Source: a virus. Taken from it: a DNA stretch of 51,599 nucleotides. The stretch spans positions 1-51,599 of IMG/VR virus record IMGVR_UViG_3300048079_000024, one strand, 5' to 3'. Under the pieces are notes generated by a model. That model was not told where the DNA came from and did no database searches. It saw only the letters and a list, made by a program, of their open reading frames with translations. Below, in pieces: positions 1,545 through 34,592 of this stretch (within the stretch, counting starts at the first letter, position 1; each line of letters begins with the position of its first letter). The position numbers and the translations under genes were made by a program.

Positions 1545-2720
1545 ATGAGCGTCCGTGAGTTCGTCGATGCGATTGCAAAGGGTGAGCTGGTCGAGGACGA
1601 GCTGCTCGTGGACCGCAAGACGGGTCTCGTCCGACAAGCGGGCACCGTCGATGGCGGGGATAGCAAGTTCATCCTGAAGTTCCGCGAGGCCGCTGAGCGA
1701 TCCCTGTACGTGTTTGCGAAGGCCGTGCTCGGGCTCGACCGGCTCACCCATCATTTACACTTGCCCGTCTGCCAACTGCTCACGCGCATCCCGCCCTATC
1801 GCAAGCTCGTGCTCCTGCCCCGCGATCACCTGAAGTCGAGCATCGTTGCGAAGGCTCTCCCCATCCACATCCTCATCCAGCCGAAGGAGAACAACATCTA
1901 CATCCCCAAGCTCGACGGGGCCTCGACGCGCATCCTGCTCTCGAATGAGACGGCCACGAACGCCGAGCACTTCCTGCGCTGGATTATGGCGAAGTTCGAG
2001 ACGAACAAGTTACTGCGGGCACTCTGGCCGCATCGGTGCTGGAACAACCCCCGCCGCGAATCGAAGAAGTGGCAGGAGAAGGAAATGATGATTCCGCGTG
2101 ATGAAGACTTCCCCGAAGCCAGCATCGAGACCATCGGCGTCGGGGGCGCGATCACCTCGCGGCATTACAATGTGCTCATCAAGGATGACTTGATCTCCAT
2201 TGAAGCCGCGAACTCCCCCGTTGTCATGCAGACCGCTGTGGAGTGGCACAAGGCATCGCGGGCGCTGATGGACGATCCTGATAAATCGCTGGAGTTCATC
2301 ATTGGCACACGCTGGGCGGTGTACGATCTGTACGAATACATCGAGCAGGAAGATCCCTCGGTGGAAGTCTACAAGCGAGCGGGTGTCGAGGATGGGGTCT
2401 CGATCTGGCCCGAGATGTTCTCCCTGGAGACCCACGCGCGCCTGCGAAAAGAGTTCGGGACGCTGTACCCGTTGTTGTATCTGAACAATGCCACAGACCC
2501 CGCGTTGACGGACTTCGACTTGGAGGAGATCCGCATCTTCAACGTCGAGGGAGACAAGATCACATTCGAGGAGACCGAGCAGGATTTGCTGCTGCACAAG
2601 GAACAGAACACGCCCGCGCAGTCCCCGGATCTCCCGCGCGGCACCGTGCTCACACGCGACACGTGGGGACAGATGATGGGACGAGGCAAGCAGGAATACT
2701 TGAGGCTCAAATATGGCTGA
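1545..2720 (+). CDS. Terminase large subunit, ATPase half (split TerL)
   Basis: The 391 residues match the N-terminal motor of phage terminases: a deviant Walker A region (PRDHLKSS, residues 92-99), an LLSNETATNA segment, Walker B with catalytic acid LIKDDL (D214, D215) and a coupling-type GTRW (254-257). The motor pumps DNA into the prohead. The protein stops before the RNase H-like nuclease, which is encoded by the next gene in another frame. The 8-nt overlap (2713-2720) suggests coupled translation and a two-chain enzyme. Confidence 0.88.
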   Translation: MSVREFVDAIAKGELVEDELLVDRKTGLVRQAGTVDGGDSKFILKFREAAERSLYVFAKAVLGLDRLTHHLHLPVCQLLTRIPPYRKLVLLPRDHLKSSIVAKALPIHILIQPKENNIYIPKLDGASTRILLSNETATNAEHFLRWIMAKFETNKLLRALWPHRCWNNPRRESKKWQEKEMMIPRDEDFPEASIETIGVGGAITSRHYNVLIKDDLISIEAANSPVVMQTAVEWHKASRALMDDPDKSLEFIIGTRWAVYDLYEYIEQEDPSVEVYKRAGVEDGVSIWPEMFSLETHARLRKEFGTLYPLLYLNNATDPALTDFDLEEIRIFNVEGDKITFEETEQDLLLHKEQNTPAQSPDLPRGTVLTRDTWGQMMGRGKQEYLRLKYG

Positions 2721-3351
2721 GCTAGACCTGAGCCTCTTGAGCACGTGCTATGCCTTCTGTGACCCAGCGGGAAAGAGAAAGCCGGGCGAGACCCTCAAGC
2801 GGGTGCGGGCACGTTCCGCCATCATCGTCGTGGCCCCCGATCACCTGTCGCGCATTTTCGTGTTGTATGCTTGGGCCAAACGCTGCTCGACGGACGAGAT
2901 GATCGAGCAGATCTTCGAGACCCAGGAGCGATTTCGCCCCCGGATCTTCGGGGTCGAGGCGAACGCGATGCAGTCCTTGTTCGCCGATGCGATTCGCCGC
3001 GAGTCCCGGATGCTCCAGAAGCGCATTGCTCTGCTCCCCGTCACACAGCCCACCGGCATCGATAAAGACTTTCGCATTCGGGCCGCACTCCAGCCGGTCA
3101 TCGCCTGGGGGCGTCTCTTCATCCAGGAGCACCAGACGGATCTGCTGCATGAGCTGACCTCGTTCCCGATGTCTGCGACCAAGGATCTCGTGGATGCGTT
3201 GGCGAGTGCGATCGCTCTCGTGCCGCAGAAGCCCACGCGCCGCCAGCATGACGAGGAGATCCAGAAGCTCGCTGCGTACTTGCGGAACTCGGGTGCGCCT
3301 GCGGCGTACATCGAGCAGCGAATCTCCGAACTCGCACTGAGGAAGAACTGA
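2713..3351 (+). CDS. Terminase large subunit, nuclease half (split TerL)
   Basis: The 212 residues fit the RNase H-fold nuclease of TerL. Three acidic clusters are at the expected order and spacing: D17 in FCDPA, E82 in GVEAN, and D158/D161 in KDLVDALA. It would make the headful or end cuts. It starts at ATG 2713, inside the end of the ATPase gene and in a different frame. Both halves keep their catalytic residues, so this looks like a stable gene split, although a single indel in the assembly must be excluded. Confidence 0.85.
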   Translation: MAELDLSLLSTCYAFCDPAGKRKPGETLKRVRARSAIIVVAPDHLSRIFVLYAWAKRCSTDEMIEQIFETQERFRPRIFGVEANAMQSLFADAIRRESRMLQKRIALLPVTQPTGIDKDFRIRAALQPVIAWGRLFIQEHQTDLLHELTSFPMSATKDLVDALASAIALVPQKPTRRQHDEEIQKLAAYLRNSGAPAAYIEQRISELALRKN

Positions 3352-4804: not shown

Positions 4805-5506
4805 TTGGCAACCGTCAGCGAACTCGGCGAGACGTGGAACACGACGGCGGGTAATAAAACTGTCGCAGCAACACCCGCTGTTGATGACCTTATCGTTGTC
4901 GTCCACGGCATGTCGGGATTCGCTGGCGGCGATACCAGTGTTATTACTGATGACCAGGGAGGCACGTACACGCAGATCGGGGCGAACCCGCTCTCCTCGG
5001 GAGGCGGTACTGCCTGTGCTCTCTGGATTTCGATTCGTAATGCTTTAATTGCCTCTGCTGTTTCAACAATTTTTACAGCAACGAATGTTGGAGATACCGG
5101 CGGCGGGTTGACTGTCCTGAAAGTCACGGGCATGACCCGAGCGGGCGGAAATGCAGCAAGGCAAAGTGTTGGAGAGAGCACACAAACCGAGAGCCCCGTT
5201 GTCTGCACGTTTCCTGCTGCCCCGCTCACAGCGAATCCCTGCATCGCTGGCGTATTCGGGGAGGACAATCCTGCGGCCCTTGGTGCGCCGACAAGCTGGA
5301 CAGAGACGACTGATACCGGGTGGGCAACCCCTGCTACGGGTATTTGGGTTGGCTTTAGAAGTTCGGGTGAAACGAGTGCGGCAATTACTTGGGCCTCTGG
5401 CGCATTCATTGACCACAATGAGGGCATGGTGGAACTGGACACATCGGTTGATCCAGTAGAGCTGCGGGCTGCAATTAAGCCACAGTTCTACGCGCATCAA
5501 TACTGA
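4805..5506 (+). CDS. Beta-rich virion/adhesin-like protein, 233 aa
   Basis: TTG 4805 follows the previous stop with no gap. The protein is rich in Thr, Ser, Gly and Val, with alternating beta patterns and no long helix, as in receptor-binding or decoration proteins. It resembles the 220-aa protein at 6534 in design (a GxxxVxVA-type beta core and TxTGWATP-like loops). Both flank the lectin-like protein at 5508, forming a putative fibre or tip cluster. Confidence 0.65.
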   Translation: MATVSELGETWNTTAGNKTVAATPAVDDLIVVVHGMSGFAGGDTSVITDDQGGTYTQIGANPLSSGGGTACALWISIRNALIASAVSTIFTATNVGDTGGGLTVLKVTGMTRAGGNAARQSVGESTQTESPVVCTFPAAPLTANPCIAGVFGEDNPAALGAPTSWTETTDTGWATPATGIWVGFRSSGETSAAITWASGAFIDHNEGMVELDTSVDPVELRAAIKPQFYAHQY

Positions 5507-5507
5507 G

Positions 5508-6533
5508 ATGAAAACAACATACACACTCCAGCACGGCCTGTGGCTCCCTAAGCGGCAACTGAGGCGAGGGTTCGGAGACGTGGTGGCATCCCTCACAAAG
5601 CGATTGAGCGTTACGGAGTGCGGAGGATGTTCACGCCGCCGAGCTACGCTGAATCGGTGGTTTCCATCCTTGGAGCCGTTTGCGCCTCCATCAGCGCAAA
5701 GAGGGTTTGCCGATGGCCCCGTTAGGCTTTTTGGTTCTAAAGTACGAACGGGATCAGGCGGAGCCGGTGCCGGAGGGGGCGGCGGTCCTGCTCTTGCAAA
5801 CTGCTGCCCAGGTGTCGGCGGAGGATGTCCAGGCAGCAACCCAAGTTACGTTCTACTGCGAGACAACTTCGACGATGTTGGTGGTTTCAGCGAGGACTGC
5901 TGGGCTGGTGGACTATGGAAGGAACCGACGCGGTGGACACAGGAAACAACCATCGTTGCTCAAGGGACGGGTTCGCTCCGGCTGGAGTACGCGGCAAATA
6001 GCACCGGACCCGGATTTGAGCAGGCCGATGATTATGCGGCCAATCGTGAAGTCTATGTCGCGTACAAGGAGCGTCTTTCGAGTGGATGGCAGGTAAGCGG
6101 TGTGGGTCAGAAAGGGATGAAGAACTTTGCAACTGGTGTTACGGAGAATCAGATTGAGATGCGCATGTCCCTTTTCGGTAATGGCTATCATTTCAATACT
6201 GAATCTGGTATCTCGCCGGAGCTGACCTCACCCAAGACGGTCAAAATGTGGTTGCCAGATAACACCTGGGTCTGCATCGAGGGGCGCATGAAGTGGAACA
6301 CAGCTGGGCAGTCTAACGGTGAGTGGCAAATGTGGAACGACGGAGTATCCCAATTCACGGAGACTGGCCTAAACTTTACAGATGATTCACGGCTGATGAC
6401 GGCTATTATGATTAGTGCCTACTACAACCAGCAAGACCCATGCACGGAAGCAAGCCCGTGTGCGCCAGCAGCGATCCAGTATCGTTACATCGACGATCTC
6501 ACGGTGAGTACGCAGCGAGTGGGGTGTACCTAG
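5508..6533 (+). CDS. Virion protein with CGGC motif and lectin-like domain, 341 aa
   Basis: Residues 20-52 hold FGDVVA...CGGCSRRRATLNRWFP, a motif I recognise from many phage tail-region proteins (GDVVA, CGGC, RR, LNR). A Gly-rich linker (about residues 80-100) leads to a C-terminal beta domain of about 225 residues. Its pattern (DNFDD start, WVCIEGRMKWN, GEWQMWNDG, YIDDLTVS end) fits a concanavalin A/LamG-type jelly roll found in sugar-binding or polysaccharide-lyase proteins. A receptor-binding or depolymerising role is inferred. Confidence 0.65.
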   Translation: MKTTYTLQHGLWLPKRQLRRGFGDVVASLTKRLSVTECGGCSRRRATLNRWFPSLEPFAPPSAQRGFADGPVRLFGSKVRTGSGGAGAGGGGGPALANCCPGVGGGCPGSNPSYVLLRDNFDDVGGFSEDCWAGGLWKEPTRWTQETTIVAQGTGSLRLEYAANSTGPGFEQADDYAANREVYVAYKERLSSGWQVSGVGQKGMKNFATGVTENQIEMRMSLFGNGYHFNTESGISPELTSPKTVKMWLPDNTWVCIEGRMKWNTAGQSNGEWQMWNDGVSQFTETGLNFTDDSRLMTAIMISAYYNQQDPCTEASPCAPAAIQYRYIDDLTVSTQRVGCT

Positions 6534-7196
6534 ATGGCATTCCCAGTTGTTGACTCGCGAGCTTTATCACAGACCACACCCGCCAATACTTCCCATGTGG
6601 TGACGCTGCCATCTGGATCGGGCGGTATCGTCATCATAGCGGCAGGGTTCAACGGAGAAGGCGGGCTGCCGGTTATTACATGGCCCGGCAGTATGACCGA
6701 GTTCTACACAGGCACCAATGTATTCATCAAACATGCTGGGGCCTATGGCACTCCGGGTGGAAGCAGCATCACAATTACTACGGACTTGAGTATCAAAGCC
6801 GCTTTCATCGCATGGCGTATTTCCGGGGCCGAAAACCCGGCAACACAACCGCCCGAGGCTGGCCTTGCAACTGGTACGAGCACCACGCCCGATCCTCCAA
6901 GCCTGAGTCCTACTGGGGGCGCAAAGGACTACCTATGGATTGCTGCGACTGCTGGTGTAAGCGGTCAGGATGTTACGGCGGCTCCTGCGAGCTACACGGA
7001 CTTTCAGGATTCTACTACTGGAATAGCAGGCGACGACGTTACGACAGCCAGCGGCGAAAGATCCCTGAATGCGGCCTCCGAAGATCCGGGCACTTTTACT
7101 GCCGTTGATTCAGAGCGTTGGGTCGCAGCAACCATTGCCGTGCATCCATCACCGGCAGTCGCCGTAGAACTCCTCGGCGCGATGGTCACGGGCTGA
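6534..7196 (+). CDS. Beta-rich virion/adhesin-like protein, 220 aa
   Basis: It abuts the previous stop. It is Thr/Ala/Gly-rich with alternating beta strands and ends in a hydrophobic AVELLGAMVTG. Similar in size and style to the protein at 4805, so the two may be paralogues around the lectin-like protein. Probable fibre or head-fibre component; no enzymatic motif seen. Confidence 0.65.
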   Translation: MAFPVVDSRALSQTTPANTSHVVTLPSGSGGIVIIAAGFNGEGGLPVITWPGSMTEFYTGTNVFIKHAGAYGTPGGSSITITTDLSIKAAFIAWRISGAENPATQPPEAGLATGTSTTPDPPSLSPTGGAKDYLWIAATAGVSGQDVTAAPASYTDFQDSTTGIAGDDVTTASGERSLNAASEDPGTFTAVDSERWVAATIAVHPSPAVAVELLGAMVTG

Positions 7197-7468
7197 TGGG
7201 ACATCTCATTTGCTGGGATGAAGGCGGCGGTAGCAAGCACACACGCGAGTACGATACGGTCTCATGCTCGCACTGTCAGAAGGTGATGGAGAAGAAACGG
7301 TGGAAGGCAGTCGGGCACTGGTGCTTCGTGTGCGGGAAGCCTGCGTGCGGTGAGGACAATCCTGCGTGCCATATCAAGTCACTGAAAGGCTGCGTCCCGT
7401 TTATGAAGAAGGTTGAGCAGGAGTTGGCGCGGAGTCGGTTCTATATCGAGGCTGGGGGGGTACGGTGA
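7196..7468 (+). CDS. Zinc-finger protein, 90 aa
   Basis: ATG 7196 overlaps the preceding stop (TGATG). Pairs CSHC (about residues 24-27) and CFVC (about 43-46), with further Cys and His nearby, suggest one or two zinc sites. The C-terminal third is basic and helical. Function unknown; one of several small zinc proteins in this genome. Confidence 0.65.
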   Translation: MGHLICWDEGGGSKHTREYDTVSCSHCQKVMEKKRWKAVGHWCFVCGKPACGEDNPACHIKSLKGCVPFMKKVEQELARSRFYIEAGGVR

Positions 7469-7590
7469 ACATAGTTGTTGGTCTTTATTTTTGCCTGGTG
7501 ATCCTCTACATCGTTTTTGCGGTTCGCCTTTGGAGGGAACAGGATAGGCTTATGAGAAAGATGGATAAGATTGAGCGGCGTCATGTATAA
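7465..7590 (+). CDS. Membrane micropeptide, 41 aa
   Basis: GTG 7465 overlaps the previous stop by 4 nt (GTGA). Residues 2-22 are hydrophobic (IVVGLYFCLVILYIVFAV) and the rest is strongly basic and helical (RLWREQDRLMRKMDKIERR). N-out/C-in topology is expected. The 3' end overlaps the start of the hydroxylase-like gene. Function unknown. Confidence 0.55.
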   Translation: MNIVVGLYFCLVILYIVFAVRLWREQDRLMRKMDKIERRHV

Positions 7591-8026
7591 GCGCATTGGC
7601 ACCTACAAAGGCGACGTGGATTTTCTGTTGTCCCAGGCAAGCCGCGTGGGAATGCACCCGAGTGGCAGCGGCTACACATGCAGTCCTCGGGATCAGACAA
7701 AGGAGTTGTATCTGCCGCTCGTCAAAGATGTGTTCCCCGGCAACTGCACCGGCTTGTTCCTCGCGATCATCTGGCCGCAGGGAAACATTCCGCCGCACGG
7801 CGCAAGTGGCATTGGCGAGGTCATCGCAGACGGCTCGATGCGTTATCATCTCATTCTCAAGACGAACCCGAAGTGCTGGAACATGCACGATGGCGACTGG
7901 CAGCAATTAGAGGAGCGCGGCATTTACGAGTTTGACCCGCGCAAGGTACACGCCTCAATCAACTGGGGCAAGGAGTGGCGGGTGCATCTCGTGGTGGACA
8001 TAGATGGAGGAATGAAGAATGGGTGA
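7583..8026 (+). CDS. Aspartyl/asparaginyl beta-hydroxylase-like 2OG-Fe(II) protein
   Basis: The 147 residues match the compact catalytic core of the AspH family. RYHLIL supplies the first Fe ligand (H89), KVHASIN the second (H123), and R133 in EWRVHLVVDI lies ten residues later, where the 2-oxoglutarate-binding Arg is expected. HGASGIGEV precedes them. Known members hydroxylate Asp or Asn side chains. ATG 7583 is preferred over TTG 7571. It may modify a phage fibre or a host protein; the substrate is unknown. Confidence 0.7.
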   Translation: MYKRIGTYKGDVDFLLSQASRVGMHPSGSGYTCSPRDQTKELYLPLVKDVFPGNCTGLFLAIIWPQGNIPPHGASGIGEVIADGSMRYHLILKTNPKCWNMHDGDWQQLEERGIYEFDPRKVHASINWGKEWRVHLVVDIDGGMKNG

Positions 8027-8329: not shown

Positions 8330-8788
8330 ATGGCAGGCTACAACACAAGCAGAGCAGCGTTCACACCTTCGGCCACGCAGAGCCTTCTGCTCGACGCCGA
8401 CACCGCTGGTGACTACGGGAAAGTCACGAAGGCCACATGGGGTGGGGAACTCGTCACCTCGACAGCGGCGCGGACACGATGGGTGCGGCCCTCGACTGCG
8501 GGATCTGGTATCTTCACCGCCGTCGTCATTCAAGGGAGCCATCCATCAAACACCGCTCGGCTGCGGACGGGAACCTACGCGACACCACCGACCATCCCGG
8601 CTGCGCCAGAAGCCCTTCTGGGTATTTCCTGGAACCAGCATGGCGGCGGTGGCATCTGGTCGGCCTCGCAGCCTGACGAGGAGTGGGCTTGTCTGAATGG
8701 CGTCGGCCAAGCGCAGATCTCGTGTGTGCAAGATGTGGGCGTCGCTGCAACATCCATGAGCACCAGCGTCCACTGGCGAGAAGACTAA
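8330..8788 (+). CDS. Virion-type beta protein, 152 aa
   Basis: Strong site GCGAGGAGGTGAG before ATG 8330. Thr/Ala/Ser/Gly-rich, with predicted beta strands and three Trp in the last third. Composition resembles small head-fibre or decoration proteins. No defined family recognised. Confidence 0.6.
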   Translation: MAGYNTSRAAFTPSATQSLLLDADTAGDYGKVTKATWGGELVTSTAARTRWVRPSTAGSGIFTAVVIQGSHPSNTARLRTGTYATPPTIPAAPEALLGISWNQHGGGGIWSASQPDEEWACLNGVGQAQISCVQDVGVAATSMSTSVHWRED

Positions 8789-8793
8789 CCCTT

Positions 8794-8833
8794 TGTAGAG
8801 TCGGACGGGAGTTCAAGCCTCTCCCGACCTACA
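8794..8833 (+). promoter_or_regulatory. Long bulged hairpin before the repeat-protein gene
   Basis: TGTAG/CTACA, bulge A, GTCGG/CCGAC, bulge AC, and GGGAG/CTCTC (one G-T pair) stack into 15 bp closed by the loop TTCAAGC. There is no T run, so it is not a classical terminator. It ends where the ribosome-binding site AGGAAG (8833-8838) of the next gene begins, so it may control translation or protect an mRNA end. The innermost part looks like a tRNA T-arm. Confidence 0.6.
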
Positions 8834-8846
8834 GGAAGCAAAGCAT

Positions 8847-10445
8847 GTGTCGTCATATAGCTATGCTGGAAACTATGGCTACAAATGGCGGCGATACCGA
8901 GAGGCGTCGTTCGTTCTCGGCCTCTCGAATAGTATCCCAGGCAAGATTGACGCTATCAGCCGGGGTCGATCCGGCCCCTCGCTGCCTTTGCGAAAGCCGT
9001 TCACTCCAGCATCAGCTATGTATGCTCCCCCACCTGAAGCAGCCGTGGTTGCCGATGATGTTGAGTTACGGCGATTCGCAACCGTGCAAGACCCACAGAG
9101 AGTTCGCCCGACTATTGGGTGGGTTCTCTCGCCCCAGGTTATCGAAGATGTCACGGTTGAGCTACGGCGATTCGCCGCTGGTCCAGATCGGTCACGGTCT
9201 ATCCTGCACGACAGATCTCAAATATACATTCCGCAGATTGCCGAAGAGTTCAGTGAGGATCTCCGACACTTCACTATTGCTGCTGACCGGCAGTTCGCTC
9301 GCCCTGTCATCGGATGGATACTTCCTCCGCAGCTTGCCGAAGCAGCCGCAGAGGTCGAGCGGCAGACATTCATTTCGTCCTCAGACTTGTCGCGTCGGGT
9401 CCTGCCGCTGCACTCGTGGGTTGTCGGCCCCCAGATCATCGAAGATCTCACCGAAGAACTACGGCGCTGGTTACTTCCCTCTGATAAGCAGCGTGGCATC
9501 CTCACCTACGACTCTCGCGCTTGGGCACCCCAAATTGAGGCAGTCGCTGCCGAGGAACTTGAGCTTCGTCCGTTCATCCTCACAGCAGACAGACAGCCGC
9601 GCATCCGATTACCCATTGCCTTTGTGCGAGGACATGCGGGGCCTGCTGGCGTCGTCGTCATGCCAGAGGAACTTCAGCGGTTCCTACTTGGGCAGGATCG
9701 CATCAAGGAGCCTTGGAAGCTATCGGGGATGTTCCCCTATGCTGTCGTTCCTGACGTGGTTCCAGAAGAGGCCATTATACGCTTCCTGCTCTCAGGACCG
9801 GCCAGGGCTCCCAGATATGCAGAGGATGTTTCCTGGTTCGCAGGCTCCCCACTCAGCGAGCCAGAGGATCTTGAGGTACTGCGGTTCCTTCTGTCTGCAC
9901 CACGCTCAACCGCATCTCGATTCACCGAGGCTGTCCAGGTACGACACCCTCAAATGCCGGAGACTCCGCTCCTGGAGGAGCTACGACGGTTCCTGGTTGG
10001 GCAGGATCGTCAGCCTGGGATTGAACCTCATCTTTGGGTGCTCGGTCCTCAAATCGCTGAGTCGGCGGATTTGCCAGAGCAGTTGCGTAAGTTTTTGTCA
10101 GGGAGCGACCGACAATTTGTTCGCCAAGTGCTCTCTTCAGTGCTCGGTATCCAGCGAGAAGAGGACATCTCTCCCGATCTACTGCGGTTCCTTGCTGGGA
10201 GCGACAGACAGCTCCACGTGCGCCCGGTCATTACATGGATGCTCCCGCCGCAGATTGGGGAAGTTGTCGAGATGCCCATTGAGCTGCTCAAGTTCGTTAC
10301 TGGTGCCGTTGCACTTCGCAGAGCGTTCTTCAATATCACCGGCATCTGGCTTCCAGAGGACTTCTTCTCAGCAGCCGCGCCGCCTGTCACTGTGCGGAAG
10401 GAATGGCGCAAACAGCAATCGTGGCACCGGCATAGGAGTCAATAA
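8847..10445 (+). CDS. Repeat protein of 13 x ~33 residues, 532 aa
   Basis: GTG 8847 has AGGAAG 8 nt upstream. After a 70-residue Pro/Arg/Tyr-containing head, residues 72-507 are about 13 degenerate units with the consensus ELRRFLxGxDRQ, a variable segment, then WVLxPQIxED. The last 25 residues are basic. No known repeat family comes to mind. It lies among virion genes, so an elongated fibre or spike is possible; an alternative is a modular scaffold. A long frame overlapping it on the same strand is treated as spurious. Confidence 0.75.
   Translation: MSSYSYAGNYGYKWRRYREASFVLGLSNSIPGKIDAISRGRSGPSLPLRKPFTPASAMYAPPPEAAVVADDVELRRFATVQDPQRVRPTIGWVLSPQVIEDVTVELRRFAAGPDRSRSILHDRSQIYIPQIAEEFSEDLRHFTIAADRQFARPVIGWILPPQLAEAAAEVERQTFISSSDLSRRVLPLHSWVVGPQIIEDLTEELRRWLLPSDKQRGILTYDSRAWAPQIEAVAAEELELRPFILTADRQPRIRLPIAFVRGHAGPAGVVVMPEELQRFLLGQDRIKEPWKLSGMFPYAVVPDVVPEEAIIRFLLSGPARAPRYAEDVSWFAGSPLSEPEDLEVLRFLLSAPRSTASRFTEAVQVRHPQMPETPLLEELRRFLVGQDRQPGIEPHLWVLGPQIAESADLPEQLRKFLSGSDRQFVRQVLSSVLGIQREEDISPDLLRFLAGSDRQLHVRPVITWMLPPQIGEVVEMPIELLKFVTGAVALRRAFFNITGIWLPEDFFSAAAPPVTVRKEWRKQQSWHRHRSQ
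9060..10367 (+). repeat. 13 degenerate tandem repeats of ~100 bp (coding)
   Basis: The units begin at each ELRRF-like block: VELRRFATVQD, VELRRFAAGPD, EDLRHFTIAAD, a diverged EVERQTFISSSD, EELRRWLLPSD, ELELRPFILTAD, EELQRFLLGQD, EAIIRFLLSGP, EVLRFLLSAP, EELRRFLVGQD, EQLRKFLSGSD, PDLLRFLAGSD and IELLKFVTGA. Spacing is 32-35 residues. DNA identity is low, so the array is old and kept by protein-level selection. Confidence 0.75.
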
Positions 10446-10990
10446 TGGCGAAAACACGTAAGGAACATTTGGAGGATCAGCAGAAGCTCGAAGAGTCGTG
10501 GCGGGCAGTCCATAACCTCTGCGCGGGGTTCGAGGGCATGCTCGATCTCCGGGATGCGCTCGTGGTCGCCCTAGAGGAGAGCAAGACCCGCATCGAACGG
10601 TTGGCTGAGCTTGACAAGTTGATCGAGTCAGCTCAGACTGAAGTAGGCCGGTTGTCCGATCAGAAGAAGAAACTCGATGTTGATGTGAAGAAGGCCGGTG
10701 AGCGTGTCGAGCAGACAGAGCGGCAGGCTCACGACAAAGTGAGGGCTGAACTGGACAAAGATCTCGCTGGCGTCAAGACTGCCCTAGATGCGGCTCGGAG
10801 TGAATTGAGGGCATTCGAGGAGAGTGCAGCAATCAAGAAGGTTGAATTGAACCGCGACTTCGATACGAGAAAGGCTGAGTTCAACAGTGCGCTCGTCGAG
10901 CTGAGCAAGGATGCCGCCAACAAGCGTCGAGAGCTGGATCAAGTCACGCAGCAGCTTCGTGCGCTTCGCTCTGGCATTCCTGCTGCATAG
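10445..10990 (+). CDS. Coiled-coil protein, 181 aa
   Basis: ATG overlaps the repeat-protein stop (TAATG). Residues about 40-175 are almost all Glu, Lys, Asp, Arg, Leu and Ala with heptad spacing, predicting one long coiled coil. There is no membrane segment. Being coupled to the repeat protein, it may be its assembly partner or a fibre stalk; both are inferences. Confidence 0.75.
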   Translation: MAKTRKEHLEDQQKLEESWRAVHNLCAGFEGMLDLRDALVVALEESKTRIERLAELDKLIESAQTEVGRLSDQKKKLDVDVKKAGERVEQTERQAHDKVRAELDKDLAGVKTALDAARSELRAFEESAAIKKVELNRDFDTRKAEFNSALVELSKDAANKRRELDQVTQQLRALRSGIPAA

Positions 10991-10999
10991 GAGGGGACG

Positions 11000-11281
11000 A
11001 TGGCGAACGATCTGACGAAGAATCCTTGGAGGGTGGACACCCCAGGAGCGTCTGTGCTCGCTGCCGATCGTATCTATGTCAAGGGTGTACGCTGGGTCGG
11101 GGCGACCACGGCGGGGCACGAAGCGATCATCCAGGATAAGAACAACCGTAACGTGTGGCGCTCTCTCGCAGCCGGGGCGAACAACGTCGAGTCCGACTTG
11201 ATCGAGAGCATCCCCGGCTACTGGGATGGCATGAAAGTGCCCACGCTCGGAAGTGGCGAGCTGTATATCACTTACGACTAG
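11000..11281 (+). CDS. Small conserved phage-type protein, 93 aa
   Basis: Strong site ATAGGAGGGGACG before ATG 11000. Compact beta-rich protein (ADRIYVKGVRWVGA, GHEAIIQDKN, then GELYITYD). Proteins of this form occur in many environmental phages as small virion or unknown proteins. Function unknown. Confidence 0.7.
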   Translation: MANDLTKNPWRVDTPGASVLAADRIYVKGVRWVGATTAGHEAIIQDKNNRNVWRSLAAGANNVESDLIESIPGYWDGMKVPTLGSGELYITYD

Positions 11282-12010: not shown

Positions 12011-12194
12011 GTGTCCGCAGGATCGGGTGGAGCTGTCGCACGGCTGGGTCATGGGGACAGGGTTGATCCAGAATGGTGTGCAGGGAATATGGGGGATGAC
12101 TGTGCAGGATCGCAAGGATTATGAGCGGTGGGTGCAGGACTGGAAGACGTGCGCTCAGGCTAGAGGAGTTGTCATAGAGGAGGCAAATCGCTGA
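11913..12194 (+). CDS. Outer-membrane lipoprotein spanin (Rz1-like), 93 aa
   Basis: GTG 11913 (or GTG 11919) starts inside the i-spanin gene. A basic start and a hydrophobic stretch end in a lipobox, LLLMSSC (Cys at residue 21). The mature part is longer than typical Rz1 and lacks a strong proline run. Overlap of about 100 nt with the upstream gene, in a different frame, is the hallmark of spanin pairs. Confidence 0.68.
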   Translation: MKVRRSEIRLLGAVLLLMSSCATARLTKLPLPECPQDRVELSHGWVMGTGLIQNGVQGIWGMTVQDRKDYERWVQDWKTCAQARGVVIEEANR

Positions 12195-12574
12195 TGCCAT
12201 CCATCCGCATCGCACTCAGCGTCGAGGTTGACGGTCAGCCCGTGCCAGGGACGCCGATCGTCCGTCGTCTCACAGCGGATGAGGTGCAGCAGTTCGATTT
12301 CGAGAAAGCGGGCGATGCCGATGCTGTCACCTTTACGGCGCTTCCCGCCGATCAGCTCGCCGAGATCCAGATGCTTCTCTTGCAGTCCGACAAACTCATT
12401 ACCTTGCGTCTCCAGAACCAGTCTGACGCAGGATTGAAGATCAACCCTGGTGGTGTGGTCTTCTTACTCAACGTAGACATCGACGCAGGTGCGGGGGCTC
12501 TCAACGCGAAGATCAACAGCAATGTGGCAGCAGGCATCCTTGCAGCCATTCGCGGCCTCGCGGGAGGCACCTGA
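12194..12574 (+). CDS. Hypothetical beta-rich protein before portal, 126 aa
   Basis: Starts in the stop of the o-spanin gene (TGATG) and ends in the portal start (TGATG), so it is coupled to both. The N-terminal half looks like a beta domain (IRIALSVEVDGQPV...); the second half (LNVDIDAGAG) is Ala/Gly-rich. Probably a virion or assembly protein; family not recognised. Confidence 0.65.
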   Translation: MPSIRIALSVEVDGQPVPGTPIVRRLTADEVQQFDFEKAGDADAVTFTALPADQLAEIQMLLLQSDKLITLRLQNQSDAGLKINPGGVVFLLNVDIDAGAGALNAKINSNVAAGILAAIRGLAGGT

Positions 12575-14439
12575 TGCCTCGATACCTGGATTACTTCGAG
12601 CGACCGGAGCCCCTCGTTCTCAACGACGCGCAGGTGGTCTCGTTGAAGCAGTGGCTCATGGATGAGGTGGAGGCTGCGGTCTCTGCACGCATGGAGCAAG
12701 AGCGTGTCTGGCGTGACGTGCTCCGTATGTACGAGGGTGTCCCCAAAACTGAGGTGCGGAACGTCCCGATCGAGAATGCCCCGAACATCGAAGTCACGCT
12801 CGGGGCGATCGCCTCCGATGCCATCTACGCACAGGCTGTAGACACCCTCTTCAACATCTCGCCGCTCATCACTGTGCGGGCCACGGACAGGATGAATGTT
12901 CCGTCCGCCAAGGCGATGCAACGATGGGCGAATTGGGTCGCGGACAACCAATCGAAGCTCCGCCCGGCAGCCGAGTCCACCGTGCTCGATACTGTGCAGC
13001 TCGGCACGGGGGTCTACTACATCCCGTGGGTGGAATGGACGAAGAAGACCCGGATCGCCCGCGTGCTCAGTCGCGGTCCTGTCATCTTCAGCATCCCGCC
13101 CGAAGATGTCTTCGTACCGGGGGGTGCGAACGTCGATGTGCAGACGGCTCAGTGGGTCGGTGTACGCTTCTGGCTGTCTGAAGGCGAGTTTGCCTCGCGG
13201 GCCAAGCGTCACGAATGGAACACAGACGGCGTGATGCCTGCGGGCACCGTAGGCTGGGTCCGCTCGCACCGGGAGATGCTGGGGCGCACCTCATCGAGCC
13301 GCACGATTGGATTCAACTATGAAACCTTCGACATCTACGCACTCTTCGATATTGACGACGATGGCGAGGAGGAAGATCTGCTCATTCACTGGGATCGCTC
13401 CTCGCACAATATCATGGGTGTCTGGTACAACCCCTTCGACAACCGCCCGCTGGAGCCCATGCGCTACCAGTTGCGCCCGCACCTCTTCTACGGCATCGGT
13501 GTGATCGAGATGGTCAAGCCATTCGAGGAAGAGGCCACAGAGATCCACAATTACCGCATGCTCAACATGCTCCTGGCGAACTGTCGCTTCTGGAAGGGCC
13601 GCACCGGGACCACCGCAGATGGCGAGCTGCGGATTTGGCCTGGCAAATACTTAGAGATGCAAGATCCTGAAGATCTCAAAGGCGAAGCAATGGCCGAGGT
13701 CTATCCGTCCATCTTCCAATCTGAGTCCATCCCGATCGCGCTCGCTGAACGCCGCACAGGTGTCAACGAGATGTCGTATCCGCGTCCGTCCCAGGTGCTC
13801 GGCTCGCGCACGCCGGGGATCACCGCGCTCTCCATGATCCAGATGACCAATCGCCGGTTCACCCCTGCCTTCGATCAGATCCGCATTGGGTCGGCGAAGG
13901 CGATCATCCAGTGTATGTATCGTTATCAAGAACGCCTGCTCGCCAACGATACTCGGGTCGAGGAGAACATCCGTTCCGTGTTGGGCACACGAGATGGTGC
14001 CCTCGTCATCAATGCTTTGAAACGCCCCGACTTCGATGAAGCTGTCGCTATCGAGATGACGGCTTCCGGGGCCACGACAAACCGGGATGCTGATCGCCAG
14101 AATGCGATCATGCTCGTGAACATCCTATCGAGCTACTACCAGAAGACACTCGAACTCGTGATGATCGCCTCAAACCCGCAGACACCCCCTGAAGTTCGGG
14201 ATGTTGCTACGAAGATTTCAGGCGCGGCTTCTGAGATCATCGAGCGGACCATCCGCACGTTCGATCAAGTGCGCGATCCGCAGACGTTCATTATCGATGT
14301 GGAGCGGGAGATAGATGCGCTGCCCGGCCTGGACCAAGAGGGGGTGTCAGGATTGACAGGACTCGTCTCCCGTTTTGCACAAATGACAGCAGGGGAGGGG
14401 AATGGTGGCGCTATGGGCGGAGTACCTCAACCGGGATAA
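12574..14439 (+). CDS. Portal protein
   Basis: The 621 residues have the layout of a podovirus portal: an acidic helical start, a clip/stem-type core (PIENAPNIEVTLG, then IPPEDVFVPGG), LFYGIGVIEMVKPFEEEATEI-like segments for the stem, and an acidic helical C-terminal crown and barrel. It should form the 12-mer through which DNA enters and leaves. It is followed at once by scaffold- and capsid-type genes. Confidence 0.85.
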   Translation: MPRYLDYFERPEPLVLNDAQVVSLKQWLMDEVEAAVSARMEQERVWRDVLRMYEGVPKTEVRNVPIENAPNIEVTLGAIASDAIYAQAVDTLFNISPLITVRATDRMNVPSAKAMQRWANWVADNQSKLRPAAESTVLDTVQLGTGVYYIPWVEWTKKTRIARVLSRGPVIFSIPPEDVFVPGGANVDVQTAQWVGVRFWLSEGEFASRAKRHEWNTDGVMPAGTVGWVRSHREMLGRTSSSRTIGFNYETFDIYALFDIDDDGEEEDLLIHWDRSSHNIMGVWYNPFDNRPLEPMRYQLRPHLFYGIGVIEMVKPFEEEATEIHNYRMLNMLLANCRFWKGRTGTTADGELRIWPGKYLEMQDPEDLKGEAMAEVYPSIFQSESIPIALAERRTGVNEMSYPRPSQVLGSRTPGITALSMIQMTNRRFTPAFDQIRIGSAKAIIQCMYRYQERLLANDTRVEENIRSVLGTRDGALVINALKRPDFDEAVAIEMTASGATTNRDADRQNAIMLVNILSSYYQKTLELVMIASNPQTPPEVRDVATKISGAASEIIERTIRTFDQVRDPQTFIIDVEREIDALPGLDQEGVSGLTGLVSRFAQMTAGEGNGGAMGGVPQPG

Positions 14440-14641
14440 TACGGCACTCAGTGACTTCTTGGCTGAATTGAACAAGTTGGAGTTGGAACAGGTCGTGAAG
14501 ATGATGAGTGACCCGTGGGAGATGGTCCTGGAAGCGCGCGGCGCAAAGAAAATGCTTGCTTTGTTGCAGCGCATGGCTACACTGAAGCAAAGGGAGGAGG
14601 AGTCTCATGCCAGATATAGTAGACAAGCCCAAGGAAGGTGA
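14402..14641 (+). CDS. Small helical protein overlapping portal, 79 aa
   Basis: Starts 38 nt before the portal stop and overlaps the scaffold start by 35 nt. ATG 14402 has AGGGGAGGGG just upstream. It is almost fully helical (LAELNKLELEQVV, MVLEARGAKKMLALLQRM). Possible portal or scaffold chaperone. The unusually long overlaps at both ends are not shared by neighbours. Confidence 0.6.
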   Translation: MVALWAEYLNRDNTALSDFLAELNKLELEQVVKMMSDPWEMVLEARGAKKMLALLQRMATLKQREEESHARYSRQAQGR

Positions 14642-15386
14642 GGGAGCGCCAGTAGTGGCACCCGTTGTGAGTCCAGATGTCACTGCCCTCCAGACCACAC
14701 TGGCCGGGCTCGCAAACCAGATGCAGTCGCTCCAGACGGGGTTCAATGCACTCGTGGCTGATCGGCAAGCGGCTGCGGCCCGTGGCGAACCTATCAAGCT
14801 GGCCCCCCGCGTGACGGATGAAGAGATCAACGACGCCTACGCGCAGGGGAACGCGGCTCCGGTGCTCCGCCGATTGCTCGGAGAGGCTGTGGAGGATGTT
14901 GTGACGAAGCACGTCACCCCACTCCAGCAAATCGGCGTGCGGTCTATCTCGGGGCTGACTAAGGAACTCACCAAAGGGCAGATGAAGTATTACGAGCGGT
15001 TCAAGGACGAGATCGACAAATACATCGACCAGATGGACCCCGAGGCGCGGATGAACCCGGCAGCCCTGAAGATCGCGCACGATGTCGTCGTGGGCCAGAA
15101 GACAGATCTGCTCGTGAAGGAAGCCGTCGAGGCGGGTCTGCGTCAGGCAGCCGAGGGTGCTGGCGGGAAGCCAAATCTCCCTGGCTCCACGGTGAAGCGT
15201 GGCGAGGGCGAGGGGAAGATCCCCACCGCTGAGGAACTCTTTGGCAAGGATTCCGCAAACGCGCTGCTGTCGAAGGGTGTGACCGAAGACGAGTTCGCCA
15301 AGAGCCTCGGTCATGCAGATTGGCCCGCGTACGTGAAGCTGTATAACGAACAGGAGGCTGCGCTTTCAGGAGGGAAAGCGGCATGA
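14607..15386 (+). CDS. Scaffold-like protein, 259 aa
   Basis: Acidic, helical, Ala/Glu/Gln-rich, with low-complexity Pro/Val/Ala at the start and a basic patch before the C-terminus (STVKRGEGEG). It is located between portal and capsid genes. This is the composition and place of phage scaffolding proteins that shape the prohead and then leave. Confidence 0.7.
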   Translation: MPDIVDKPKEGEGAPVVAPVVSPDVTALQTTLAGLANQMQSLQTGFNALVADRQAAAARGEPIKLAPRVTDEEINDAYAQGNAAPVLRRLLGEAVEDVVTKHVTPLQQIGVRSISGLTKELTKGQMKYYERFKDEIDKYIDQMDPEARMNPAALKIAHDVVVGQKTDLLVKEAVEAGLRQAAEGAGGKPNLPGSTVKRGEGEGKIPTAEELFGKDSANALLSKGVTEDEFAKSLGHADWPAYVKLYNEQEAALSGGKAA

Positions 15387-16024
15387 CGAAGATCATCAAG
15401 AACCCGAACCAGCGTCCACTCCCTCCGCCTGGGGCTGCTCGCCAGGAGGAGTTATCCCGTCGTACGGACGAATTAGAGCAGCTCGCCGAAGAGATGGGCG
15501 AGAATGTGGGCGTGGTTGACCCCAGCGCATTCGAGGTAGACCCCGCTCTCTCTGCCCGGTTCAATGAGCTGGAGGTCTCAAACCGCGATTCCGCGTACGC
15601 CTACTGCTGGGTTTTCACCGGGCAGCTTGGCCGCATGGTCAAGATGAAGACAGTCGAGGGTTGGGAAGTTGTGTCCGGCGACATGGAAGAAGCTGCGGAC
15701 CTGAAGCAGCCAGATGGCACCCGTCGCCTGGGTGATGTGCTGCTCATGCGGATTCGCAAGGACCGGAAGCTCCTGCTCGATCGCAAGGACCGTGAAAGAC
15801 GCGATGCCCAACAGGGGGCGGTGACGGCGCAGCTTGAAGAGATGGGCGCGCAAGCTGCCAAGCATGGGGTCATCGTGCATACGGGTCAGAGTGTCAGCCC
15901 TGACATGCTGAAGAGAATGGAAGGCCGTGCGTCGGCACGTCGCGCAGCGGTGGGCGCTGTGGACCAGATGATCCGCAAAGGTCGTGTGCCGGGTGTTCCC
16001 ACGCCCGGTCGAAGAGGGAGGTGA
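15383..16024 (+). CDS. Conserved head-region protein, 213 aa
   Basis: 4-nt overlap with the scaffold gene. It begins with a Pro-rich basic stretch (NPNQRPLPPPGA), then a mixed fold with AYCWVFTGQLGRMVKMKTVEGWEVV-type beta segments, and a basic tail. Such proteins between scaffold and capsid are seen in other podoviruses, function undefined. It could be a head or packaging accessory. Confidence 0.7.
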   Translation: MTKIIKNPNQRPLPPPGAARQEELSRRTDELEQLAEEMGENVGVVDPSAFEVDPALSARFNELEVSNRDSAYAYCWVFTGQLGRMVKMKTVEGWEVVSGDMEEAADLKQPDGTRRLGDVLLMRIRKDRKLLLDRKDRERRDAQQGAVTAQLEEMGAQAAKHGVIVHTGQSVSPDMLKRMEGRASARRAAVGAVDQMIRKGRVPGVPTPGRRGR

Positions 16025-16029
16025 GATAA

Positions 16030-16524
16030 ATGGCAGTCGGTACGCTTCTGTCCAACGCATTCGGGATTGAGCCGCAACAGCGTGAGGGATTGTATTCCAC
16101 CCCTATGCGCGAGGCTACGGAGGGAGCCACGCAGGTGTTCAAGAAAGGGGCGCTTCTCATCAATTCGGCTGGGCATCTCATCGTTGCCGCTGCGGACGCG
16201 GTTGCAGGCATCGTCGGCGTCGCTGCTGAAGCTGGGCACAACGCGGGTGCAGGCGTGAAGACAGTCAAGTATTACCCCGCACACCCGCACGTGGTCTTCG
16301 AGGCAACTCTGGAGGACCAGCTCAACGAGAACCATGTGCTCGTCGCCGCGAATCGCTGGGCGGCATTTGCAATCCAGCTAGACACACCGGGGAACTTCTA
16401 CCTCGACGAGAACGATACGACCAACGTGGCCGCGCGCGTCGTGGCATTCAAGGATGCTCTCGGGACGACTCGGGCGCGCGTGCTGTTTCAATTCCTGATC
16501 GACACGACCATCTACGGTACATAA
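16030..16524 (+). CDS. Head decoration-like protein, 164 aa
   Basis: AGGGAGGTGAG precedes ATG 16030. Beta-rich, with an Ala/Gly/Val core and a central loop PAHPHVVFEATLED. Position just before the capsid gene and composition suit a capsid-stabilising decoration protein. Confidence 0.65.
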   Translation: MAVGTLLSNAFGIEPQQREGLYSTPMREATEGATQVFKKGALLINSAGHLIVAAADAVAGIVGVAAEAGHNAGAGVKTVKYYPAHPHVVFEATLEDQLNENHVLVAANRWAAFAIQLDTPGNFYLDENDTTNVAARVVAFKDALGTTRARVLFQFLIDTTIYGT

Positions 16525-16543: not shown

Positions 16544-17440
16544 ATGCCAATCAATAGGGGAGGTTTTGCACCGCTCCTTGCCGTCGATCTGCGCCAGGTC
16601 TACATCGAGACCGGCAAGGAACGTCCGTTGGAATACCCGCTCCTGTTCAACGTGGACAACATGGAGTGGAACCCGGTCAAGGATCAGCAAATCGCAGGGC
16701 TCGGCACCATGCCCACGAAGCCAGAGGGCGAGCAGTTCAAGCTCGACGAGCCCGTGCTCGGCGGGACGAAGGAATACCTCGCGGACCCGTTCGGCCTTGC
16801 CACCGAAGTTACCTGGGAGATGTGGCGTGACGAGATGTACGGGATCATGCGGGAACTCGTCGCCGAAATGCAGCGGGCCTCACGGAACCGGCAAGAGGTC
16901 GATGCGTGGTCCGTGGTCAACAATGGCTTCGACAACGCTTTCCCCGGTTTCGATGGGGTGTCCCTGTTCAACACGGCGCACCCTGGCATCCGTGAGGGTG
17001 CTCAGGCCAACCGCCCATCGCCGGATGTGGGCTTCAGCATCACCGGCATCCAGAACTCGATCACCCGGTTCGAGGGGATGGTCAACTCGCGGGGTATGCC
17101 TCGGTTGATGACCCCAGTGATGGCTGTCATCACTGCGACCAACAAGTACGCGGCCCGCGAGATCCTGGGGTCGAGCGGAAAACCGTTCACGGCGGATAAC
17201 GAGATCAACGCGCTCGTGCAAGAGGATCTGTCGTGGATGATTGCCCACTACATCACCACACCGACCAACTGGTTCCTCGCCGCAGCGAAGGGCATCCACG
17301 ACCTCAACTTCCTGTGGCGGGATATGCCCATCTTCGACGCCTTCGATGACCCGTGGACGAAGAATGCTGTGTTCACGAGTTATCAGCGTCACACCAAGGG
17401 CTTCGGGTCATACCGAGGCGTGGATGGCTCAACCGGCTAA
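16544..17440 (+). CDS. Major capsid protein (Mu/HK97-type fold)
   Basis: Strong site AAAAGGAGGTGAG before the start. The 298 residues include an LFNTAHP motif (residues about 144-150), like the LF..(A/D)H(P/G) of Mu-type major head subunits, and a C-terminal DAFDDPWTKNAVFTS segment. No N-terminal delta or protease domain is seen. It should build the icosahedral shell with the scaffold at 14607. Confidence 0.82.
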   Translation: MPINRGGFAPLLAVDLRQVYIETGKERPLEYPLLFNVDNMEWNPVKDQQIAGLGTMPTKPEGEQFKLDEPVLGGTKEYLADPFGLATEVTWEMWRDEMYGIMRELVAEMQRASRNRQEVDAWSVVNNGFDNAFPGFDGVSLFNTAHPGIREGAQANRPSPDVGFSITGIQNSITRFEGMVNSRGMPRLMTPVMAVITATNKYAAREILGSSGKPFTADNEINALVQEDLSWMIAHYITTPTNWFLAAAKGIHDLNFLWRDMPIFDAFDDPWTKNAVFTSYQRHTKGFGSYRGVDGSTG

Positions 17441-32058: not shown

Positions 32059-32100
32059 GGCAGTATGAGCAGTGATGTAGTCTGTCCTCACAATACTGCC
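32059..32100 (-). terminator. Inverted repeat after the polymerase gene
   Basis: GGCAGTAT and ATACTGCC (perfect 8 bp) flank 26 nt that can form an inner GTGA/TCAC stem. It touches the polymerase stop. There is no T run. It may lower read-through into the ATPase gene or stabilise the mRNA. The rest of 32005-32099 holds no clear gene. Confidence 0.45.
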
Positions 32101-34592
32101 TATGATTCTTTTTGAAGGTCCAGCAGGGAGAACGCGGCATCCGTGAACTCCTTTCTGTTGGGCAACCGCTTGTATTCCAGCTCAGCCTTCCACATGGAGC
32201 CCAGCGAGAACTCAGTCCAGATCGTCACTGGCTCACCGTAGTAATAGATTGGCTGCTCCAAGCTGGACTGCAAGAACACGGCGATGTCCCAGGCATGCTC
32301 GGGTGGCGTGGAGATCCAGAGCCCGTCCTGCATGTGCAGGTTGATCGCAGGCTTGATCCCCGCGTGCGAGTGTGCGTGGCAGCAAGGTTTCAGTAGATAC
32401 TCGTCGGCGGGAATGAACCCCCACAGGTTCATCAGGATGGCAATGTCCGACTGCGGCCTCCAGGCATACGCGCGCCGGTACAGGTCATCGTCCAGCCGCT
32501 CGTACTCGAAATCGATGATCGCGCCCCAAATGTTCGAGAGGCATCGATTCCGCATCACCTCCGATCGGGTCTCCTTGTGGTAGACCTCCTTGATCTCCGG
32601 GGAATCTGCGTGCAGCTTGTCAATGATCCGTTGTGCCTCCTCGGAGGGGATGACGTAGCCTTCCTTCAACAGTTCATCGGAGAGCCGCCGCCCGTGCATG
32701 TCATAGTTCGTGGCATGCTTCGCTCGTTTGCCCAGGTATCGCTGATCGTAGTCCACCTCATCGATCGGTGTCCCGAACGCCACGTGCGCCGAGTGCTTGT
32801 GCGCGTCCCACTCATCCGGGTGCAGTCGCGCGAGATTGATGAGCCGCTTTGACCGTGTGAGCATCTTCACCACGCGATCTTCTGCCTGGCTCAGATCCAC
32901 ACCCAGGAAGACGCACCCCGGATCTGGCTTCACGATGTCTCGGAGTTCGCGGTCGAAGTTGTGGGGGCTAGCTCCTCGCTTGGCGGGGTTCTTCGAGGCC
33001 CGCATACGACACGTCTCAGCATACGGCCCCATTGTGAAACGCCAGCGGCCATCCGGGTCCAGACGCTCTTCCTTGAGGAAGCGGGCCACGGTGGCTGTTC
33101 GCCTATGGTCCAGGATAAGTGCTCCAGCCTCCGCAAGTTGGGGCTTGTTTGGATAGCGAAGTAGCAATCGTCGGACAGCAACCTCGTTGGTAGTGGCTCG
33201 TCCCGTCTTTCGATTGAGTATAGGGGGAAGCCGAAGCGTAGTGTAGAGGAAATGCTTGAGCTTTTTCGTGGAGAGATCCGTCTTCCCGTAGAGCGGTTCG
33301 CCTGCGATTTCCGTGAGCCGATCTTGCGCGTTGATGACCCGCGCCTGGAGCGCCGCGAGCTTGTGCCGTCTCTGATGGTCATCGAGACCCACGCCATGCA
33401 GCATGATTCGCAGAATTGGAGCGAACAGTTGTCGATAATATCGGTTGTAAAACTCCATCCGTCCGGCAGCAGCGAGCCGCACGTGCAGCGTGTCGCTAAG
33501 TTCTCGCTCGACGGCGGCATCAATACCACAGTAGGTCCAAAGGGCTTCCTCGTCTGAGGCATACTTCATCACCTCCTCGGGATCTTTCGTCTCATCCTTC
33601 CAGTATGGTTGCCGCGTGAAGATGCTCGCCATGTACGCCAGATCGTGATTATCCACGGGATCGAGGCAGTGATGTTGTGCGAGGCAATCCCACACGAAGT
33701 TGGTGATCTCACACCCGTTACGCGAGAGGTGCCAGGCGTCATAGAGCCAGTTCTGTCCGATCTTCTCCAGGCCACTCGCCATCAGTGTGCGGATCGCATC
33801 CCACACGTGGCGCAGTACGTAATCATCTTTCCAGTATGAAGGCGTCGTCGGGACGGTCATGCTGAACGCGGGGTCGTTAGAGAAGCCAACGCAGAGGATG
33901 AAGTCAGGGAGGTTCTCGATGTCTACAGCGATGGGTTCGCCGAGCTTGATCGCGCCATGCACGTAATCGTACACATCATCGAGTGTGGGCCGGATGAAGT
34001 GCTCACGCTGGGGCAGGCGTAGCTCCCGAAACGTGGCGTCGTCTGCAATCCGTGTCCAGTCGAGGATGCACGCCCGCTCCCAATTCCGCTGCTCGACCAC
34101 GCCCTCGTCGCGTTTGCGAGACGCGCGCCACAATGTGTGCGCCGGATGGATGGTGGGGATGACCTTGATCTCGCGTCCACGTCTGTCTGTGTAACTGTAG
34201 ATCGAGCCCCGATGCGAGGTGATCCCAGGCTTCTTTTCGCCCTGCCGAAACTTCCCTTGACCCGTGAGTGCGTATAGCGCCTTGTTGCCAGTCGGAACGA
34301 TGAGCCACGGATCTGTCAAGGCAGCCAGGCGATCGTGCAGCTCGTTGATCCAGTGCTCGATCTCATCCTTCGGGACAGCATCGATCCCTTGACGCGGCCA
34401 GTATGGATAGACATTCGTGATGTAGAAGTTGCTGCGAAGGAGCCCGACACGCGGCCACCAATTCTGTTCGAGTTTCTGGCCGCTCGGGCCGACGAATGGG
34501 CGCAGGAGTTGATTCTCCCAGCGACCGGGGGCTTCCCCGACGAGGACGATCCGGGCGTTCGGGCTGCCCTCATCAGGGACGAAGTTTGTCAT
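32100..34592 (-). CDS. Uracil-DNA glycosylase / 3'-5' exonuclease / family A DNA polymerase fusion
   Basis: 830 residues in three parts. Residues 1-175 match family 4 UDG (GEAPG 19-23, PFVG 32-35, IHPAHTL from 148). Residues 215-370 are a DnaQ-type proofreader (D224/E226, D285, D358 in YCGIDA). Residues 400-830 are PolA: motif A DLSQAEDR (D566), motif B R618-x3-K622-x3-H626-x3-Y630, motif C HMQD (D756). Motif B has His where Phe, Tyr or Leu is usual; motif C has QD for HD. It should copy the genome and inspect for uracil. Confidence 0.9.
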   Translation of the reverse strand: MTNFVPDEGSPNARIVLVGEAPGRWENQLLRPFVGPSGQKLEQNWWPRVGLLRSNFYITNVYPYWPRQGIDAVPKDEIEHWINELHDRLAALTDPWLIVPTGNKALYALTGQGKFRQGEKKPGITSHRGSIYSYTDRRGREIKVIPTIHPAHTLWRASRKRDEGVVEQRNWERACILDWTRIADDATFRELRLPQREHFIRPTLDDVYDYVHGAIKLGEPIAVDIENLPDFILCVGFSNDPAFSMTVPTTPSYWKDDYVLRHVWDAIRTLMASGLEKIGQNWLYDAWHLSRNGCEITNFVWDCLAQHHCLDPVDNHDLAYMASIFTRQPYWKDETKDPEEVMKYASDEEALWTYCGIDAAVERELSDTLHVRLAAAGRMEFYNRYYRQLFAPILRIMLHGVGLDDHQRRHKLAALQARVINAQDRLTEIAGEPLYGKTDLSTKKLKHFLYTTLRLPPILNRKTGRATTNEVAVRRLLLRYPNKPQLAEAGALILDHRRTATVARFLKEERLDPDGRWRFTMGPYAETCRMRASKNPAKRGASPHNFDRELRDIVKPDPGCVFLGVDLSQAEDRVVKMLTRSKRLINLARLHPDEWDAHKHSAHVAFGTPIDEVDYDQRYLGKRAKHATNYDMHGRRLSDELLKEGYVIPSEEAQRIIDKLHADSPEIKEVYHKETRSEVMRNRCLSNIWGAIIDFEYERLDDDLYRRAYAWRPQSDIAILMNLWGFIPADEYLLKPCCHAHSHAGIKPAINLHMQDGLWISTPPEHAWDIAVFLQSSLEQPIYYYGEPVTIWTEFSLGSMWKAELEYKRLPNRKEFTDAAFSLLDLQKES

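Follow-up and report, generated by a model that had tools for sequence, protein, structure and literature searches.

A tandem-repeat protein with an undescribed 33-residue module in the terminase-to-portal cassette of a tailed phage

Tandem-repeat modules are a frequent means by which phages build rods and binding surfaces, and orphan repeat proteins are common in phage accessory cassettes. In the roughly 9-kb interval between the terminase and portal genes of one virus, a sequence-only reading had pointed to a gene for a repeat protein of no recognized class, which raised the questions of whether the repeat is real, whether it is new, and what the phage might use it for. The window that we analyzed is the whole stretch of 51,599 bases (IMG/VR virus record IMGVR_UViG_3300048079_000024), and it encodes a terminase, an SU10-type portal, a capsid protein, a family A polymerase, and a primase-like protein (Table 1).

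Table 1. Coordinates of the repeat-protein gene, its parts, and its neighbors in the window
Feature	Position	Strand	Remarks
Terminase large subunit, left conserved border	1545..3351	+	two ORFs
Aspartyl/asparaginyl beta-hydroxylase domain protein	7571..8026	+	PF05118, 2.8e-9
Fiber-like small protein, 152 aa	8330..8788	+	upstream of repeat gene; no family match
+1-frame open stretch, candidate overlapping ORF	8677..10461	+	594 codons; ATG at 8845
Repeat-protein gene	8847..10445	+	GTG start, TAA 10443-10445, 532 aa; weak SD-like "aggaag" upstream
N-terminal nonrepeat part, residues 1-71	8847..9059	+	basic, pI 9.7, Y/S/P-rich
Repeat units 1-6, residues 72-273	9060..9665	+	each unit supported in leave-one-out scoring
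Repeat unit 7, residues 274-306	9666..9764	+	supported by leave-one-out profile
Repeat units 8-9, residues 307-376	9765..9974	+	degenerate; unit 8 unsupported, unit 9 marginal
Repeat units 10-12, residues 377-477	9975..10277	+	supported; units 10 and 12 have the top two scores
Repeat unit 13, residues 478-507	10278..10367	+	weak support
Basic C-terminal tail, residues 508-532, and stop	10368..10445	+	pI 12
Coiled-coil protein, 181 aa	10445..10990	+	directly downstream of repeat gene
93-aa protein	11000..11281	+	syntenic, conserved; 61% identity in L006, 42% in L027
Right conserved border	12194..14439	+	small syntenic protein 12194-12574; SU10-type portal 12574-14439
Capsid protein, Mu gpT/Phage_capsid_4-type	16544..17440

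The coordinates and reading frame first proposed for the gene held from the GTG start to the TAA stop. The GC contents at the three codon positions (0.68, 0.46, and 0.58) speak for this frame rather than either of the other forward frames, the codon log-likelihood is +0.07 compared with -0.32 and -0.44 for the others, and the frame is the better-supported coding frame. Its coding signal is lower than that of the packaging and capsid genes (about 0.3 to 0.45) and similar to that of the cassette genes at 5508, 6534, and 8330 (0.07 to 0.11).

The internal repeat claimed for residues 72 to 507 was confirmed by self-comparison and by profiles tested against shuffled sequences. In an ungapped self-comparison, the best diagonals scored 122 (offset 99) and 119 (offset 240), whereas 100 shuffles reached no more than 54, and the top 20 diagonals summed to 1,279, compared with at most 582 in shuffles. 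After segmentation by hand into 13 units of 30 to 37 residues (a module of about 33), each unit was scored against a hidden Markov model of the remaining units and against 2,000 shuffles of itself. Units 1 to 7 and 10 to 12 scored 16 to 42 bits, with 0 of 2,000 shuffles as good, while shuffles reached the score of the real unit in 3 of 2,000 cases for unit 9, 12 for unit 13, and 136 for unit 8. Scores of 31 to 49 bits, obtained for all 13 units with a profile built from every unit, were discarded as circular in favor of the leave-one-out values. The repeat is real, and 10 units are statistically firm; the spacing justifies the earlier count of about 13, which includes the marginal unit 9, the weak unit 13, and the unsupported unit 8. 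The proposed consensus, xELRRFLxGxDRQ...WVLxPQIxE, is correct, with L, F, and D each reaching at least 90% in 11 aligned units, and the Asp of GxDRQ is kept in 10 of the 13 units.

At the DNA level the units have drifted far apart. Identity between similar segments is 0.53, 0.55, and 0.32 at codon positions 1, 2, and 3 (random, 0.25 to 0.28), and identical residues in different units use the same codon in 129 of 338 cases, compared with 128.6 expected from codon usage, both of which bear out the view that the DNA diverges while the protein pattern persists. Because synonymous sites are saturated and protein similarity is kept, the units are old at the DNA level and have been held by selection at the protein level. 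The repeats are thus old duplications under purifying selection on the protein, which means that the module pattern matters. Ten firm units with saturated synonymous sites also vary enough among themselves for the module to be defined from one gene, without a known homologue.

Whether the module is new was addressed with family, homologue, and structure databases. The whole protein matched zero Pfam-A families, ankyrin, TPR, HEAT, LRR, pentapeptide, WD/Kelch propeller, and PPR included, with hmmscan at E values up to 1, a search by sequence profiles that may miss divergent repeats. PHROGs (hmmscan) gave no family, tail and fiber families included, and NCBIfam and PADLOC gave no match. Comparison with PDB sequences produced only chance-level matches; those to steroid 21-hydroxylase (E value, 0.013) and MESD (E value, 0.24, over nine residues) were judged to be chance. 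Close relatives of the whole protein were absent from IMG/VR, INPHARED, and PLSDB, and blocks of units found no homologue in IMG/VR or in 85k cellular genomes (GTDB genome contigs), where the scans rely on short exact peptide or DNA patterns that distant relatives may escape. The alignment of all units was too variable to be used as a search query, and a DNA pattern for W-V-x-x-P-Q...L-R-R/K-F, which recovers two units of the window, had only chance matches in short ORFs of IMG/VR. A literature search found nothing on this 33-residue repeat. Within the reach of the family libraries and PDB sequences searched, these results support the original description of the repeat as undescribed, and they show no sign of ankyrin, TPR, HEAT, LRR, pentapeptide, or propeller repeats; Pfam gave no clear match to a known repeat family. 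Judged by its sequence, the 33-residue module has no description in these libraries, and any new type of module may represent a new fold.

AlphaFold2 models of unit blocks (mean pLDDT, 40.5) and of the full-length protein (mean pLDDT, 32.4) were uninterpretable. Column-averaged propensities weakly suggest that the unit begins with a helix-prone stretch (EELR in EELRRF), turns at GxDRQ, and continues into a strand-prone WVLxPQ. Each unit may consist of a short amphipathic helix, with an E/D-rich N-cap and L, F, and L at positions i, i+3, and i+4, followed by an extended segment. It has the same length as TPR, PPR, ankyrin, and TAL-effector-like units (33 to 35 residues) and, by eye, shares a short N-capped helix at the unit start, but it carries W-x-x-x-P-Q with a conserved proline where those folds have the second helix, and it lacks their matches in Pfam (E values up to 1) and any credible match in PDB.

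The genomic setting bears on the possible use of the protein. The cassette that holds the gene includes an endolysin-type peptidase gene (4288), a sugar-lyase-like gene (5508), adhesin-like genes (4805, 6534, and 8330), and small genes that look holin/spanin-like on visual inspection of the sequence. Searches with the portal yielded homologues in 28 IMG/VR loci and none in cellular genomes. In two related loci, L006 and L027, the order of coiled coil, 93-aa protein, border protein, and portal recurs, with the coiled-coil gene directly before the gene for the 93-aa protein, and another coiled-coil gene occurs in L002, although the coiled-coil genes of these three loci were matched by position and sequence type only. 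The small protein of the right border also recurs in related loci. Upstream of the coiled coil, gene content differs between the window, L006, and L027, and in a distant phage (vir526; portal 22% identical) the terminase adjoins the portal. Since the content between terminase and portal varies among relatives, the repeat gene sits in a variable cassette. The repeat protein was absent from all related loci searched by tblastn and with the unit profile, many of these records being fragments, and the only match of the profile in the window and related loci was the repeat protein itself.

We tentatively favor, at somewhat less than an even chance, a lineage-specific tandem-repeat protein that gives the virion or the host-contact apparatus a modular rod or a multivalent surface for binding, which would be its likeliest use. 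Some 12 or 13 copies of the module, each with a short ELRRFL segment, a GxDRQ turn, and a hydrophobic W-V-L-x-P-Q-I segment, would make up a mildly acidic domain of elongated shape, flanked by the basic N terminus and the basic C-terminal tail. The phage would produce the protein jointly with the coiled-coil protein of the next gene downstream, the two perhaps being working partners. This reading is consistent with the strong internal repeats and their protein-level constraint, with the location of the gene in a fiber/lysis cassette of a tailed phage, the 3' part of which is syntenic with relatives, and with the presence of other short tandem-repeat proteins before the portal in L010 (22-residue YTGK units), L002 (FTGK units related to those of L010), and L004 (NPTVTV-like). 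However, the cassette also contains nonstructural genes (hydroxylase, peptidase, and lysis type), so position alone is no proof of a structural role. Most phage fibers are beta-structured, whereas the conserved ELRRFL with its acidic N-cap looks helical; the searches brought up no relative with an assigned function, and AlphaFold2 yielded no usable model.

The YTGK and FTGK proteins (L010:2-844 and L002:3084-3602 and 7200-7538) have no credible Pfam family, and those at L010 and L002:3084-3602 had no homologue in the phage collection by tblastn. Like the repeat protein, they consist of tandem short modules in the same general region before related portals, and in both unit types a G is followed by a motif containing K, Q, or D. 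However, their units have 20 to 22 residues, the gene order is different, and the L010 repeats are far more regular than those of the window; comparison of the profiles detected no kinship between the window repeat and YTGK-type units (hhalign probability, 0.1%). The fiber/adhesin modules of the cassette (window 4805-7196, L006 3367-5727, and L027 1589-4051) share the same variable terminase-portal setting but look beta-rich, being rich in G, T, S, and A, and are without the 33-residue repeat.

If the unit does resemble a short amphipathic helix with an extended segment, the protein might instead be an accessory host-takeover or adaptor protein that acts inside the cell, as an alpha-rich or alpha/beta solenoid binding a host protein or nucleic acid. 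We consider this unlikely but deserving of some weight: no signal peptide is apparent by eye, both termini are basic, and the same cassette holds accessory genes such as the hydroxylase gene, whereas the neighbors are mostly fiber and lysis genes and the Pfam search at E values up to 1 returned no solenoid repeat of the ankyrin, TPR, HEAT, LRR, PPR, or any other type. A different role, that of an assembly helper or scaffold acting with the adjoining coiled-coil protein, draws on the one-base overlap between the repeat-gene stop and the coiled-coil gene (TAATG at 10443-10447). This overlap, already noticed in the sequence-only reading, suggests coupled translation of the two genes, and L006 and L027 both retain a coiled-coil gene at the corresponding position. 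Both of those loci, however, keep the coiled coil and lack the repeat protein, which means that the partnership is not obligate. Scaffold and protease genes usually lie between the portal and major capsid genes, but the repeat gene comes before the portal, and the portal-to-major-capsid interval (14607-16524) is filled by other genes, which are unassigned. Thus, a helper or scaffold role appears very unlikely, and of the earlier proposal of a modular virion fiber or a scaffold, the fiber fits the fiber/lysis context while the scaffold has become the less likely part because the gene precedes the portal.

The protein might also be a substrate of the phage's own aspartyl/asparaginyl hydroxylase, whose gene precedes the repeat gene by about 0.8 kb on the same strand, with the conserved Asp of GxDRQ being hydroxylated in many units. 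There is a parallel in FIH, an asparaginyl hydroxylase described in one report as modifying residues in ankyrin repeat domains (PMC3569879). Relatives of the PF05118 hydroxylase were absent from 15 related viral records and from the phage collection, and this phage has both the hydroxylase and the repeat protein, neither of which was found in the related records. Nevertheless, this co-occurrence comes from a single genome and many of the related records are fragments, and of the roles considered for the protein we find modification by the hydroxylase the hardest to credit.

The repeat gene is also open in the +1 frame, where an overlapping gene is possible: in addition to the repeat protein, the DNA from the ATG at 8845 to position 10461 may encode a second protein of about 538 aa. 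The +1 frame has 0 stops in 531 codons, compared with 9.9 ± 2.3 expected from synonymous-codon permutation (0 of 5,000 permutations as low; minimum, 3), and the units are effectively independent in this test because synonymous sites between them are saturated. In 476 such tests, which covered long ORFs from the window and from the other records analyzed, this was the most extreme result, the only z value below -4 and the sole case of zero stops where at least 4 were expected, with the repeat gene entered by hand over the longer +1 ORF and the other genes taken as the longest ORF. Other genes of the window (31 tested) were unbiased in +1, with 275 stops observed and 272 expected, and the ATG, two bases before the GTG, is spaced closer to the shared weak SD-like site. 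On the other hand, codon usage in the +1 frame is poor (-0.32, within the range of ordinary out-of-frame reading), and the product departs from a chance composition only in having C and Y in place of stops. The phage collection contained no homologue of this product, and between units the third codon positions of frame 0 carry no additional constraint. The null distribution is somewhat broader than normal (+1 mean, 0.23; standard deviation, 1.25), and with this spread and about 238 genes taken into account, the probability of such a frame by chance is roughly 2%. We regard a second protein as quite unlikely, and still more so the full combination of a new repeat fold with a dual-coding gene whose 33-residue repeat protein and +1 protein of about 538 residues are both used; if true, the +1 frame would be an unusually long overlapping gene.

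Some other features of these phages were observed. Fiber-like proteins with 49-residue repeats (EAFTxGNFDxDTxxxxSQDDFYDRxHLFDxDDDG) are encoded directly before the portal at L024:2199-3503 and L029:8546-9988. The terminase large subunit of the window is split into overlapping ORFs at 1545-2720 and 2713-3351, corresponding to the ATPase and nuclease parts, and termN and termC matches are likewise apart in L017, L023, and L029. On the minus strand of the window, at 32100-34592, a uracil-DNA-glycosylase-type domain is fused to the family A DNA polymerase in one ORF of 830 aa.
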